A stretch of DNA of 64,000 bases from Cardiobacteriaceae bacterium (lineage in GTDB: Bacteria > Pseudomonadota > Gammaproteobacteria > Cardiobacteriales > Cardiobacteriaceae): positions 1 through 64,000 of the forward strand of contig JAFUTP010000037.1 of assembly GCA_017484165.1 (NCBI GenBank), in the 5' to 3' direction. The translations under genes were made by a program, and so were the position numbers. The notes beneath the pieces are model-generated. The model was not told where the DNA came from. It made no database searches and saw only the letters and a list, made by a program, of their open reading frames with translations. Shown here in pieces: positions 24,624-30,430 of the stretch (positions are counted from its first letter, which is position 1; every line of letters starts with the position of its first letter).

Positions 24624-25577
24624 CTATTTTGATTTATGCCAAAAACAATCCACAATTAAAATATCAGCTGGCATACCTTTGATTTGTATATCAAATTTCA
24701 AACTTGGTTCAACCTGCGTTTTTGCGTTATGTATTCTTAACGAAAATTGCCAACCCTCATCTAAACAAAGCAATAAAGTATTTTTCTTATCTTTTGAAAA
24801 ATCTAAATATAAAATTTCCGTAGGTAATAAAACCGCTTTTAATTTTTTTATGCTATTTTTACCTAATTGCTGATGAAGATTAAATACTTGTAACTGTGTT
24901 TTCTTTTGATTATCCACACTAATTACTTTATAAAAATCTGATTTACCTAAAATATATTCAACAATTTTTTGTGCAACAATATGCCCATGTTGTTGATATA
25001 TTCTATTTAATTCATTTTTAAAAGCACACATTAAGGGATAATAAACTTTATCTTCTTTATTTTCTAAATCACGCCAATTTGACCCCTTTTGTTTTTCTTG
25101 CTCTAAATAATTAAAAATCGGTTGAATTTCATTTTTATAATTTTGTGATACTGGAATATTTAACCATTTTTTACCAAAATCAATTTTAGGGCTTAATCGA
25201 GAATGTTTTGCCGCAAAATGATTGTGTTTTACACTCAATCCAATTTCCCAACCAATCGAACTTCTAATAATTAAAATATCTCGCACATCAGCGGATTCGC
25301 CTTTACTGTCTTTTTGTAATTGTAATTCTAATATATCGTTATTATTTTTCTCTTGAATTAAAGGCTCAAATTCAAATAGCGTATCAATAATAGAATTTGC
25401 ACTGATTAAATATTTTTCTTGGGTTTCTTTATCTAATAATTCCCAAGATTTTAATGCTGCGTCAAAACTGCTATTTTGAATAATTTTTACATTTTTTATT
25501 TTTTCAATCGCATTAAATAATGAAATTAAACTCGCATATTCATATGCTCTTCCTGTTTTATTGCTTTGATTGCTCAT
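24624..25577 (-). CDS. Type II restriction endonuclease, HaeIII/NgoPII family
   Basis: A 317-residue homologue of R.HaeIII and R.NgoPII, which cut GGCC. The N-terminus [15 protein letters not shown] and the segments [13 protein letters not shown] and [20 protein letters not shown] fit the family. ADVRDI and GLSVKHN carry the likely Asp and Val-Lys of the catalytic core, as in HaeIII-type enzymes. It overlaps the methylase by 4 bases (methylase first, nuclease second), the order that lets protection precede cutting. No frameshift or early stop seen; probably functional. Recognition of GGCC is inferred from the partner methylase. Confidence 0.92.
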
Positions 25578-26560
25578 TTTTCTATCTCTAATGCTTGCAA
25601 AATAGATTTTGCCATTTCAAAAGATAAATTTACAGGAACAGCGTTGCCAATCATTTTATAACCGTCATTTAAGTTATTGTAATAAAAAATAAAATCATCA
25701 GGAAAACCTTGCACTCTGGCACATTCACGCACTGTTAAACGGCGGTATAAATGCTCTTTACCTTCCACAAATTTATTTTTATTGAGTGCCACTTTGGGCA
25801 TAATCGGTGCTTGTGGGTGTAATTGACATTGTCTGCCTGACGCTTGCACAGTAAATGCCTGTTCATGCCATTGTCGCACACGATTTCTACTCATAAAAAT
25901 CGGCGAAAATCCGCCAATATAATATTCGTGATTAGGAAATTTACATTGATCTCCATTTGTTTTATTTTGCGGTAATGCTTTTATGGCATTATTTTGCAAA
26001 TCAAAAATAATATCTTTAAATGTTAATTTTTCTTTATACGGTTGTGGCGGCATATACGAAACATTTAAATCTTTTCTAAAACCAATATAAAAAACGCGTT
26101 TTCTATCTTGTGCCACACCATAATCGGCCGCATTTAATAAAACAATATGCAAATCATATCCTGATTGTTCAAATTCTTGCACAATATTTTTAACCGCTTG
26201 ATTATGTCGCTCTGCCATCATTCCTTTCACATTTTCTGCTAAAAAGAATTTAGGTTTTTTATCGCGTAAAATACGGATATATTCATAAAAAAGTTTTCCT
26301 TTTGGATCATTAATTCCCCTTAAAGAACCTGCTTCGCTCCAAGATTGACAAGGTGGTCCACCGATAATACCATCACAATCAGGAAATTCATTTGATGATA
26401 TTTGTTTTATATCTTTTTTAATTAAGTTGGTGTGATGATTTTTTTCGTATGTTTCCCAAATAGTTTTGTCAAATTCATTTGCAACGGATATATTAAATCC
26501 TGCTTTCTCAAAGCCTAAATCTAATCCACCACAACCAGCAAATAAACTGACTAAATTCAT
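25574..26560 (-). CDS. Cytosine-5 DNA methyltransferase, HaeIII/NgoPII type (GGCC)
   Basis: A 328-residue C5-cytosine methylase closely resembling M.HaeIII throughout, including the recognition domain. Motif I is [13 protein letters not shown] (5-17). [14 protein letters not shown] carries catalytic Cys71. Others are ENVKGMM (109-115), [13 protein letters not shown] (from 151) and, in the recognition region, [26 protein letters not shown] and [20 protein letters not shown]; motif X is [11 protein letters not shown].HaeIII methylates the inner cytosine of GGCC; this enzyme should do the same. It overlaps the nuclease start by 4 bases. An uptake palindrome lies 15 bases upstream of its ATG. Confidence 0.95.
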
Positions 26561-26574
26561 ATTAAAAAATCCTT

Positions 26575-26589
26575 TTCAGGCTGCCTGAA
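26575..26589. repeat. Neisseriaceae DNA-uptake palindrome
   Basis: TTCAGGCTGCCTGAA between the relic at 26598 and the HaeIII-like methylase. Degenerate copies lie close by: TTCAGGTTGCCT at 26859-26870 and TGGTTGCCTGAA at about 26999-27010. Confidence 0.9.
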
Positions 26590-26597
26590 AAAATCAA

Positions 26598-26755
26598 TTA
26601 CGCACTTGCACTAAATTTACGATATTCATTTCTTACATTATCTAACAAAATTTGTTTGCCATTTCTTTCAACAAGCCAATAATCAAAACCATTTAAGCGT
26701 TTTGCTTTTACTGATTTTAGTAAAGCGAGCACATAAGGGACTTTAAAAATTCGAG
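26598..26755 (-). pseudogene. 3' relic with a RAMA-like domain, possibly a CcrM/HinfI-type adenine methylase tail
   Basis: About 50 sense codons end at 26598. The peptide runs KVPYVLALLKSVKAKR, then LNGFDYWLVERNGK and ILLDNVRNEYRKF. This spacing (NGxxYWxxxxxG, then IDxxRxxYR) resembles the RAMA domain found at the C-terminus of CcrM/HinfI-type GANTC adenine methylases. The rest of the gene is missing. Upstream the frame runs into a foldback element (26755-26983), which supplies a false N-terminus (frame open to 26858). The methylase identity is a pattern-based inference from a short peptide. Confidence 0.45.
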
Positions 26756-26983
26756 TGTCATTGCGAGATTTTTCCATAGGAAAAATCGTGGCAATCCAGT
26801 TTTGCCGATAGGCAAAACACAACGCCGCAAGGCGTTGCAACGACATCGCAAAACGCAATTCAGGTTGCCTATTTTTTTAAGAAACAGTGCGTTACAACGC
26901 CTTGTAGCGTTGATAAAAAAATCTAACGATTTTTTTTACTGGATTGCCACGATTTGAACTTCGTTCAAATCTCGCAATGACAC
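26755..26983. mobile_element. 229-bp miniature inverted-repeat element
   Basis: Both ends read GTGTCATTGCGAGATTT inward (17 perfect bases). After a small hairpin in each arm (GATTTTTCC-ATA-GGAAAAATC and GATTTGAAC-TTC-GTTCAAATC), both arms continue ATCGTGGCAATCCAG. The centre has further GC-rich palindromes around GCAAGGCGTTGCAAC. It has no coding capacity. Similar GTCATTGCGAG...GGCAATCC repeats occur in many bacterial genomes. It occupies most of the 289-bp stretch between the relic and the gene at 27045. Confidence 0.85.
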
Positions 26984-27044
26984 AGTTCTTTTTTTCATGG
27001 TTGCCTGAAATTTTAATTTTTGCAAGTCCCTTGATGTATGAATA

Positions 27045-27770
27045 TCACAAAAAAACTTTATTCTCCAATTTTCTTCCTTCTGAAAGATTATTGTAAAAAC
27101 ATTGTATATCATCATAATTTACAAATCTGAATAAATTACTATATTGATTATAAACTTCTAATTTCATTATTTGTTCATATTTACTTTTATGTTTTTCAGG
27201 TGAAACTATTTTAAATTCTGTTTTAAAATCTTTTAATTGCAAACTTCTATTTAATGCCGTTTCAAGAGTTCCTATACTATCAACAATTTCAAAAATTATT
27301 TTAGGAAAATACAATCCTTTTTGATTAAACCAAATAACATCTATCAATTTTGCTTTTTTTATAATTTCTGGATATGAAAAATCAGGACATTTTGCGACAG
27401 TTGCCAAATGGTTTAATTTTACATTATCCCTATAAATTGCACTTGGGTCTGCAGTATATGTTGCATATCCTAAAAAATTACCAATCTCAATACAAATACC
27501 TTCAATATATGAGTGCATTCTTACAATGTCATCACTTCTCGGTTTTTCTTCTACAATATAATCCATTAAGGCATATATGCTTAATCCTATCTTTTTAAAT
27601 GTACGATTATTCCTTATCTCACGATATAAAACACCACGAAGACCTGCAGTCCAATCTTTTGCTTGCGTGGCATTGGGATAATATTTAGTTATTCTTTTAT
27701 AGAGTTCGGATAATGAAATAGTTCCCCCATTATCTTCCATAACTCTTTTAATTGCTTCAACTTTTGTCAT
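27045..27770 (-). CDS. Winged-helix plus PD-(D/E)XK-like nuclease protein
   Basis: A 241-residue two-part protein. Residues 1-70 look like a HARE/winged-helix DNA-binding domain (VEAIKRVMEDNGGTISLSELYKRI..., then GVLYREIRNNRTFKKIGLSIYAL). From about 110 there is a restriction-like core: LIDVIWFN, then PKIIFEIVDSIGTLETAL, matching the common pattern in which an ID precedes FEhE. Here the second acidic residue of the usual EVE is Val, so activity is uncertain. It lies 14 bases downstream of a nuclease gene on the same strand. It could be the second subunit or regulator of that system. Confidence 0.55.
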   Translation of the reverse strand: MTKVEAIKRVMEDNGGTISLSELYKRITKYYPNATQAKDWTAGLRGVLYREIRNNRTFKKIGLSIYALMDYIVEEKPRSDDIVRMHSYIEGICIEIGNFLGYATYTADPSAIYRDNVKLNHLATVAKCPDFSYPEIIKKAKLIDVIWFNQKGLYFPKIIFEIVDSIGTLETALNRSLQLKDFKTEFKIVSPEKHKSKYEQIMKLEVYNQYSNLFRFVNYDDIQCFYNNLSEGRKLENKVFL

Positions 27771-27784
27771 TATATTAACTCGTT

Positions 27785-28594
27785 TTAGAAAATAACGCTC
27801 AATTTTTCATCCGTTAGAGATAATTCTTTTCTTAAATTGATATATTTTTGTTTATCTGATAATAATTTATTCAATATATCAGGGTCTTTTGTTTGCATTT
27901 TTAATAACATTTTTTTCATTATTTCATCATTATCAAAATTCACAATATTCAAAATATATTCATTTAATTCACGCTTACATTTATCCAAATATAAAGTAAA
28001 TTCATTCCAAATATCAAATCTATTAAATAGTTTTACAAATAATTCTTTACCATAAAAAATATTGATTTCCACAATATCATCTGTATTGTTTTGGATTTGT
28101 TCTAAATAATATTTTCTATTTTTCTTTAATGAATCATCAGAAAACCACATTGTGGCTTTAATTTTGTGATTTTTAAATTTGGTTTTAATTAACTTAATTT
28201 TTTTAATAAAATTAGCATACTGACCACGCTTTTTAGTTGAATCGTGATCATCTCTTATTTTTTGTTCAATAATATAAATAATGTTTTCATTATTATTTTT
28301 GAATAATTGATCAACATTTAATTCATCATTATTTTCATCTACACCAATATTTTTATCTAAATTGTGATAACCCGTATCTAAAATATATTGCGTTAATATA
28401 TCTTCAATAAAATCACCAAATTTAATTTCACAACTCTGTGTGATATTTTGAATGAGTTTTGTTTTGGCATTAGTAACACGAAATAATCCAATATAACGAT
28501 TCGGATTTTTAATAACCGTAGTTAAAATTTCATAATTAACATCTTCACCAAAAACTTGTAAATTGAGTTTTTGTTTAAATTCTTCGTATTTCAT
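27785..28594 (-). CDS. Type II restriction endonuclease-like protein without methylase partner
   Basis: 269 residues. The probable catalytic strand is NIIYIIEQKIRDDHDSTKKRGQ, where the E-x-K triad lies in IIEQK and is followed by DDHDSTKKRGQ, a motif I associate with type II restriction enzymes. An earlier acidic residue (FGDFIEDILTQYIL) would complete the PD-(D/E)XK site. The specific family cannot be named with confidence. It is upstream of the winged-helix nuclease-like gene and follows a methylase-like relic (28636-28743). No intact methyltransferase accompanies it, so it must be inactive, protected by one of the other methylases, or not a restriction enzyme. Confidence 0.65.
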   Translation of the reverse strand: MKYEEFKQKLNLQVFGEDVNYEILTTVIKNPNRYIGLFRVTNAKTKLIQNITQSCEIKFGDFIEDILTQYILDTGYHNLDKNIGVDENNDELNVDQLFKNNNENIIYIIEQKIRDDHDSTKKRGQYANFIKKIKLIKTKFKNHKIKATMWFSDDSLKKNRKYYLEQIQNNTDDIVEINIFYGKELFVKLFNRFDIWNEFTLYLDKCKRELNEYILNIVNFDNDEIMKKMLLKMQTKDPDILNKLLSDKQKYINLRKELSLTDEKLSVIF

Positions 28595-28804: not shown

Positions 28805-29542
28805 TTAATTGAGTGTGTCCATCATATCGCAGAAGAAATTTGCATGAACATTGTTCATAACCTTAAAACCACGCGGCACGCCTAAATCATTTATAACATC
28901 GGTAAATGAATTAAGCATATTTACCTTGCTTTGAATTGATGCATGCAATTGTTCACAAGCAGGCGAGCAAAGTAACGTGTGGAAAAGAACATAAAGCGAA
29001 CTTTTGATAATCGGTTCAAAATGATCTTTAAGGTTGGGGGCAAGTTCATTGAAAATATTCGAACGAATACAGCCAAGCACCGAACGGTCGTTATACACTT
29101 GACGGATTATCGTTTGCACATAATCAAGACTATTCCAGTTAATATCTTTTTTGCCTAAATTTGACGGTTCCATCAAAATAAGCGAAATTCTCTCAACATA
29201 ATAATCACGCATACAAGCAATTGAAAAACTGCTATCTACTTGATTTATATGGGAAATTGCCGCGTTTTTGTTAGCAAAAATCGTAACTTCATCGGATACG
29301 AAAGTCGGACGCAGTAGCGGCTGATAAGAAAATTTGCGATACAACTGCACGGTATCGAACGGACCTGCATAAACCAAAGAAGGTTGTTTGGTTAAATGTT
29401 GATAGTAATCATCAAAATCACTAGCGACATGCAGATGAATTGCTTCGCCCGTCAATTTTTGCAATAAGTGATTGAATTGATACCAAGCAGGAATATGCGC
29501 AGCAGCAAAATCGGGGGCAACTAAAAAATTGTAATCGCTCAT
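28805..29542 (-). CDS. PhnD-like substrate-binding domain protein, cytoplasmic
   Basis: 245 residues with the fold pattern of PhnD/phosphonate-type periplasmic binding proteins: YNFLVAPDFAAAHIPAWYQFN, a SLVYAGPFDTVQLYRKF strand-helix at the ligand cleft, RPTFVSDEVTIFANKNAA, and FSIACMRDYYVERISLILM. It has no signal peptide or lipobox, so it should act in the cytoplasm, unlike transport PBPs. No ABC transporter is nearby. Start ATG has AAGGAG upstream and overlaps the PAS gene stop by 4 bases (ATGA), so it is the third gene of a translationally coupled trio. Ligand unknown. Confidence 0.75.
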   Translation of the reverse strand: MSDYNFLVAPDFAAAHIPAWYQFNHLLQKLTGEAIHLHVASDFDDYYQHLTKQPSLVYAGPFDTVQLYRKFSYQPLLRPTFVSDEVTIFANKNAAISHINQVDSSFSIACMRDYYVERISLILMEPSNLGKKDINWNSLDYVQTIIRQVYNDRSVLGCIRSNIFNELAPNLKDHFEPIIKSSLYVLFHTLLCSPACEQLHASIQSKVNMLNSFTDVINDLGVPRGFKVMNNVHANFFCDMMDTLN

Positions 29543-30051
29543 AATTTCTCCTTCGCTAGCATTTCTTTATACAGCTTGGTGCAATAGTTGATTTTTTCTC
29601 TTGACGGTTGGCGGCGAACGGAAGTAAAGCCTTTAATCCGTTTATTTTGGTCGAAATTTGGAACAATCGTTGCATAAACCCAATAAAACTGACCGTTTTT
29701 GCGCAGATTTTTTACATAACCATTCCATTTTCTACCGCTTAAAACCGTATCCCATAAATCTTTGAACGCAGCACGCGGCATAGAAGGGTGGCGGAGAATG
29801 TAATGCGGTTGTCCGATAAGTTCTTCTTTGGAATAACCAGAAAGGATTACAAATGCACGGTTAGTGTGAGTAATAATTCCGTTGATATCGGTGCGAGAGA
29901 TAATCAACTCACCTTCTGGATACGGAAATTCATCGTCTATAACAGAAACTTCGCGCAATTTCCCGTCGTAATGTGTCAATTTGATATGTTCGACTGGCTT
30001 TATGTTGGGAATTGAGCTCGTTGTTAAGTCGTTGTCGGTAAGATTTTCCAC
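29539..30051 (-). CDS. Stand-alone Aer-type PAS sensor protein
   Basis: 170 residues. The single domain closely follows the FAD-binding PAS of the aerotaxis receptor Aer: ISRTDINGIITHTNRAF, then LSGYSKEELIGQPHYILRHP, SMPRAAFKDLWDTV, W in GRKWNGYVKNLRKNGQFYWV and IKGFTSVRRQPS. In Aer this domain binds FAD and senses redox state. No HAMP, methyl-accepting or kinase domain follows, so the output must go to a partner protein. Start is GTG (30049-30051) with AAGGAG 9 bases upstream. It sits between the Roadblock and PhnD-like genes. Confidence 0.9.
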   Translation of the reverse strand: MENLTDNDLTTSSIPNIKPVEHIKLTHYDGKLREVSVIDDEFPYPEGELIISRTDINGIITHTNRAFVILSGYSKEELIGQPHYILRHPSMPRAAFKDLWDTVLSGRKWNGYVKNLRKNGQFYWVYATIVPNFDQNKRIKGFTSVRRQPSREKINYCTKLYKEMLAKEKL

Positions 30052-30064
30052 TGTAACGAACTCC

Positions 30065-30430
30065 TTAATCTAATTGATTGAGGATTGCAAGTGCAGCACG
30101 ACGAAGTTCTGGTCGCAGTGCATTTGCATTAAGTTTGGCATCAGCTTGGATAACTGCTATTGCTTCATTATTGATGTCAATAATCAAAATTACACCGTTG
30201 TCGGTGAATAGTTGCGTATAACCGATGTTACCAACATTGAACAACTTGCCAGCACGACGGCTGATAGCGTTGAAAGCAGAAGAAACAGCTCCGATTTCGT
30301 CGATTGGTGAAGAATCTGGGAAGGTAGATGCAATTAGAACACCGTCTGCATAGTAAAGACTGATATTTTGGATTTCTGCAAATTGTCTTTGCAAATTATT
30401 CAGGTGAGTAACAATAATGCTGTTATCCAT
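30065..30430 (-). CDS. Roadblock/LC7 domain protein
   Basis: 121 residues forming one Roadblock/LC7 domain, a dimerising fold that commonly regulates small GTPases of the MglA type. Visible features: N-terminal helix, ISLYYADGVLIASTFPD (the strand with conserved DG), SAFNAISRRAGKLFNVGNIG, ILIIDINNEAIAVIQAD and a C-terminal ANALRPELRRAALAILNQ helix. No MglA-like GTPase is in the window. GGAGAG precedes the ATG. First gene of the trio, 13 bases before the PAS start. Confidence 0.9.
   Translation of the reverse strand: MDNSIIVTHLNNLQRQFAEIQNISLYYADGVLIASTFPDSSPIDEIGAVSSAFNAISRRAGKLFNVGNIGYTQLFTDNGVILIIDINNEAIAVIQADAKLNANALRPELRRAALAILNQLD

Follow-up and report, generated by a model that had tools for sequence, protein, structure and literature searches.

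Three adjacent genes of a Cardiobacteriaceae bacterium, encoding a Roadblock/LC7 protein (Robl), a stand-alone PAS protein of the Aer type and a cytoplasmic protein of the PhnD/PtxB binding-protein fold, are likely, at roughly two chances in three, to form the sensory and regulatory end of a small GTPase system of the Group 3 MglA type. Because many related bacteria carry the same trio at the end of a Ras-like switch operon, it is probably an overlooked input module of that switch which has been relocated in this genome. Group 3 systems occur in Neisseria, Xanthomonas and the methanotrophs, and the main text of PMC4316618 proposes for them a role in transcription regulation. No inputs to these switches are reported in the literature searched, and a flavin redox sensor together with a cytoplasmic binding-protein fold would be concrete candidates for what they sense. 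If this is true, the module would represent an unusual intracellular use of an ABC-type binding protein as well as a chemoreceptor-free path from respiration to a Ras-like GTPase.

The trio and its surroundings

The whole stretch of DNA analysed, here called the window, comprises 64,000 nucleotides of contig JAFUTP010000037.1. All three open reading frames lie on its minus strand: Robl (121 aa) at 30065..30430, matching Pfam Robl_LC7 at 32.1 bits (cut-off 23); the PAS protein (170 aa, with a GTG start) at 29539..30051, matching PAS_3 at 56.5 bits (cut-off 25.6); and the PhnD-fold protein (245 aa) at 28805..29542, matching Phosphonate-bd at 40.4 bits (cut-off 27). The gap between the Robl and PAS genes is 13 bp, the PAS and PhnD genes overlap by 4 bp, and a Shine-Dalgarno-like GGAG stands a few bases 5' of each start, while a scan for promoters and terminators gave no signal above chance. 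A sister species (L031) has the trio too, with 93-98% amino-acid identity to the window copies; dN/dS between the two is about 0.11 (Robl), 0.05 (PAS) and 0.02 (PhnD). This identity and these low ratios mark the three as genuine genes, closely packed in a minus-strand operon and maintained by purifying selection, and the three coupled genes of the preliminary description, which had been made from the sequence alone, are borne out in coordinates, families and spacing.

Upstream of the trio, the window and the sister species share ilvD, a TolC-like gene and a gene for a BON lipoprotein. The downstream side is a variable island, since the sister species has other genes there. In the window this side is occupied by restriction-modification genes (24624-28594), comprising an HpyAIV-family type II enzyme (27785-28594), a HARE-HTH-like protein (27045-27770), a cytosine methyltransferase (25574-26560) and a second type II enzyme (24624-25577). 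PADLOC matched only these neighbouring restriction-modification genes and assigned the trio to no known defence family, and a defence role for the trio was ruled out on that basis.

Two candidate sensors

The family profile of the PAS protein matches 8dik, a crystal structure of the PAS domain of E. coli Aer, at an E-value of 2.5e-47. Aer contacts its FAD through H53, R57, W70, N85 and R115 (PMC9668731), and the corresponding residues of the window protein, H83, R87, W100, N115 and R146, are invariant in 54 of 54 homologues. The N-cap region is likewise shared with Aer; Aer M69 is replaced by leucine here, and position 60, an aspartate in 49 of the 54 homologues, is a serine in the window copy. 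Because of the profile match and the invariant FAD contacts, FAD redox sensing is the best prediction for this stand-alone domain. Unlike Aer, the 170-residue protein consists of PAS only and lacks HAMP and MCP signalling regions, and the genome (87% complete) has no detected chemoreceptor. Since no MCP domain is detectable there, a chemotaxis output is unlikely, and an output in the style of Aer was rejected. What had been described as a single FAD-type PAS without an output domain thus appears, judged by its sequence, to be just that.

The PhnD-fold protein gave a confident AlphaFold2 model (pLDDT 93.8) that matches PtxB, PhnD and ArrX; a search of viral folds with the same model returned nothing useful. 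ArrX and AioX serve sensing rather than transport. The fold is common to these periplasmic proteins (PMC5700983), but the trio protein differs from them in being cytoplasmic. Only about six residues precede the first beta-strand motif in the window copy and in most homologues, which leaves no room for a signal peptide, in keeping with the original description. In PtxB and PhnD the ligand oxygens are held by an STS motif and a histidine (PMC5700983), and alignment to PtxB with column counts shows this STS-H oxyanion site to be absent here. Nor, unlike its periplasmic relatives, does the protein have an ABC transporter or histidine-kinase partner in view nearby: the flanking ORFs inspected, both in the window and in the loci that were fully read, include no ABC ATPase or permease gene, and the transporter partner that would have told against the preliminary description is thus not seen there. 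With no signal peptide, no anion site and no ABC partner seen, a transport role was rejected.

The protein might instead be a structural adaptor that has lost ligand binding altogether, leaving a module that senses redox only; such a variant would be compatible with the main reading, and we consider it somewhat unlikely. The missing oxyanion residues are what an adaptor would be expected to show, as are the conservation of the C-terminal helix, which is among the most conserved parts of the family, and the alteration of family-consensus cleft residues in the window copy (N60 to G, D115 to Y). Set against this, P10, D11, P61, E85 and H188 are invariant and Y58 is near-invariant across the family, all in or beside the cleft-lining loops. 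This conservation, together with a dN/dS of about 0.02, suggests that the site was changed rather than lost, and the PhnD fold could then possibly provide a second, ligand input beside redox.

Conservation of the trio and its probable link to a GTPase

Named genomes were scanned with a single PhnD protein, taken from an operon in the class sample described below (locus L109), because a multi-row alignment of the family proved too divergent as a query. The scan yielded 80 loci, chiefly from Methylococcales methanotrophs together with sulphur-oxidising symbionts. The order Robl-PAS-PhnD recurs in 72 of the 80, and the exact arrangement T-X-GTPase(MglA)-Y-Robl-PAS-PhnD, in one direction and with short gaps, in 55, though these counts are not independent because one order, Methylococcales, dominates. 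Of the eight loci that depart from the three-gene order, at least three break off at the end of a contig or close to it. Conservation in a neighbourhood search was the feature on which the preliminary description had staked its proposal, and in this respect the proposal fared well.

The redundancy of the named loci was the reason for adding 369 genomes sampled evenly across the class, in which a match above 150 bits was taken as a strong PhnD-family match. Such matches were found in 19 genomes, and for 16 of the 19 a roadblock gene is no more than about 1.5 kb away, these linked matches spanning some 12 families. A roadblock gene is present in all 19 PhnD-bearing genomes versus 71 of 369 (19%) overall, a difference whose Fisher probability of 2.8e-15 overstates independence because the sampled genomes are related. 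Within the order the association is present but weaker, with roadblock genes in 11 of 13 PhnD-bearing genomes versus 6 of 19 lacking PhnD (p 0.004). Four class-sample loci (L100, L105, L108 and L109) were fully read, and in each of them Robl-PAS-PhnD closes a GTPase operon. Nearer to the window, PAS-PhnD pairs are found in L090 of the same family and L098 of the same order.

The window's own genome is arranged differently. The preliminary description had reported no GTPase locally, which is true for the window; the single GTPase of the MglA type in the genome is encoded on contig C4 in an operon X-MglA-RoblB, unlinked to the trio on contig C33. Its motifs are GSMGAGKTT, YGTPGQERF, ITHAD and DAR. 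According to the main text of PMC4316618, Group 3 MglA proteins are marked by the lack of a lysine in G4 and by DAR in G5, and their loci consist of an otherwise unknown protein with receiver-like and winged-helix folds, MglA, and one or two MglB proteins. The C4 GTPase has no lysine in G4 and carries DAR in G5, and it is encoded beside both X and the MglB-type RoblB. X homologues hold the same operon position throughout the family; the receiver-like and winged-helix folds ascribed to X are those given in that main text. The earlier suggestion that the three proteins might be joined to a Ras-like switch is partly supported: most named relatives examined encode the trio and a Group 3 MglA in one operon, and in the window's genome the two lie apart. 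Since the trio is encoded with the GTPase in most named relatives and in the four class loci, but on a different contig here, we infer as the simplest history that an ancestral operon was split and the trio retained.

The roadblock proteins are consistent with such a history. The window Robl has a Roadblock/LC7 fold by Pfam, and the family of Robl proteins that precedes PAS-PhnD in the full operons has a profile matching MglB structures. Profile comparison (hhalign) relates the window Robl to this operon family with a probability of 94% (E 1.5e-7) versus 33% for the family of RoblB, itself a Robl_LC7 match on contig C4. By this measure the window protein appears to belong to the operon family as a divergent member rather than to be kin to RoblB, and its origin as a copy of RoblB was ruled out. 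It is only about 19-27% identical to the operon homologues, and relative to them it may have switched partners. The Y protein of the full operon yields a structure model (pLDDT 90) with a helical N-terminal part followed by a roadblock fold, and its best structural matches are roadblock domains, MglB and Ragulator subunits. No relationship emerged when Y and Robl were compared as sequence profiles, so that the roadblock fold is visible in the structure model only. On the strength of that model we read the N-terminal part as a winged helix, and Y is probably the second MglB of the full operon.

Several other genes that encode or adjoin roadblock proteins stand out in the loci. A further family of small roadblock-like proteins (118-153 aa, borderline by Pfam) is found upstream of X in related genera, with members at L029:6975-7331, L028:8874-9850, L030:6237-6593 and L036:4778-5170; a gene divergent from a trio, at L035:2320-2688, is likely a relative. 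At L106:4468-6072 an ExeA/GspA-like ATPase (Walker motif GESGTGKT) is fused to a C-terminal roadblock domain in a protein of 534 aa. An apparent serine/threonine protein kinase (HRDIKPGN, DFG) is fused to a GTPase of the MglA type at L044:1596-3089 (497 aa), adjoining Y, Robl and a possible FIST-like protein.

The loci also invite the reading that PAS and PhnD are an independent redox and ligand sensor pair, whose link to a GTPase is optional or the result of hitch-hiking, and that the trio of the window acts on a target other than MglA. PAS-PhnD is indeed the tightest pair, with 80 adjacent pairs in the named loci at a median gap of 13 bp. Five named loci have the pair with no local roadblock gene, contig ends not being the cause, and no roadblock gene was detected in two PhnD-bearing genomes of the order. 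Such loci and genomes mean that PAS-PhnD may also act elsewhere. The independent pair is nonetheless improbable: it sits poorly with the roadblock gene found in every class genome with a strong PhnD match, with the retention of Robl beside PAS-PhnD in the window despite the missing MglA linkage, and with locus L035 of the same family, where the order is Robl-PAS-Robl-PhnD and the PAS gene is flanked by two roadblock genes. That mere chance placed a stray gene for PhnD-type transport beside genes for an Aer-like PAS and a roadblock protein is extremely improbable, for although each family is widespread individually, the gene order is kept over many families, and strong selection, the lost anion site and the lack of a signal peptide or visible ABC partner all speak against it.

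Unusual versions of the pair occur as well. The PAS-PhnD pairs on the contigs L176, L178 and L182, which are labelled Anaerolineae/Ardenticatenaceae and which, having no roadblock gene nearby, also count for the independent-pair reading, have PhnD proteins that share about 60% identity with the query from a methanotroph, pointing to either recent transfer or a binning error. Shortly past a full operon, L162:8677-11660 holds another PAS-PhnD pair, followed by a divergent second GTPase of this type. Between Y and Robl, L172:4881-6011 encodes a 376-aa protein that joins a STAS domain to a PhnD-fold domain, and a 405-aa PhnD-family ORF adjoining a roadblock gene (G177:C67:35516-36208) may be of the same kind.

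Proposed mechanism and relation to known systems

In the mechanism that we infer for the input module of a Group 3 switch, the PAS protein would bind FAD and report the respiratory redox state, much as Aer does. It would work with the PhnD-fold protein, which would open or close on a cytoplasmic ligand or partner, and their combined state would be passed to the MglB-like roadblock protein. The latter would tune the GTP/GDP state of MglA, by itself or jointly with the second roadblock protein, which is RoblB in this genome and Y where the operon is complete, and GTP-bound MglA would then act on effectors, possibly X and the type IV pilus machinery.

Pilus activity is a reasonable guess at the output, and no more, being circumstantial. 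A type IV pilin gene and a TfpX/Z-like gene, the latter match scoring below its curated cut-off, lie divergently beside the X-MglA-RoblB operon of both congeners; PilB/PilT-type ATPases are present in the genome; and MglA has a role in pilus control in Myxococcus (PMC7519303). These three observations are the grounds for the guess. The alternative output proposed for Group 3 in the main text of PMC4316618 is transcription, via X. The most specific form of the scheme is a two-input Ras-like switch, in which a flavin PAS and a cytoplasmic metabolite sensor would act through the roadblock protein and Group 3 MglA on the type IV pilus, allowing energy taxis on surfaces without chemoreceptors; we regard this version as doubtful.

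The closest described systems are the Group 3 MglA loci of the beta- and gamma-Proteobacteria, which according to the main text of Wuichet and Søgaard-Andersen (2014, PMC4316618) have the same X-MglA-MglB composition, with one or two MglB genes, and DAR in G5. The likeness covers both the operon of the relatives and the C4 locus. Unlike the published loci, a large subset of operons has the Aer-type PAS, the cytoplasmic PhnD fold and a TPR-like gene as conserved members, and the trio of the window's genome is unlinked from MglA. Neither PAS nor phosphonate occurs in that paper's main text. A literature search for roadblock together with PhnD and PAS found nothing, and in the titles and abstracts of the openly accessible MglA and roadblock literature on PAS, Neisseria, Xanthomonas and Methylomonas, the operon is undescribed. 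What appears to be new is a probable sensory module, PAS plus PhnD fold, of the known Group 3 MglA systems.

Two other systems offer partial parallels. The actinobacterial conservons CvnA-CvnD (PMC13343842, PMC4316618) likewise combine a sensor, a roadblock protein and an MglA-family GTPase in one operon, but the conservon sensor is a membrane protein resembling a histidine kinase, whereas here it would be a soluble flavin PAS with a periplasmic-binding-protein fold; no counterpart of CvnC was recognised. In Snodgrassella, the orphan Group 3 gene mglB-3 lies far from the mglA operon, as the Robl gene of the window does, and mutations in it were selected during colonisation of the bee gut (PMC11112851).
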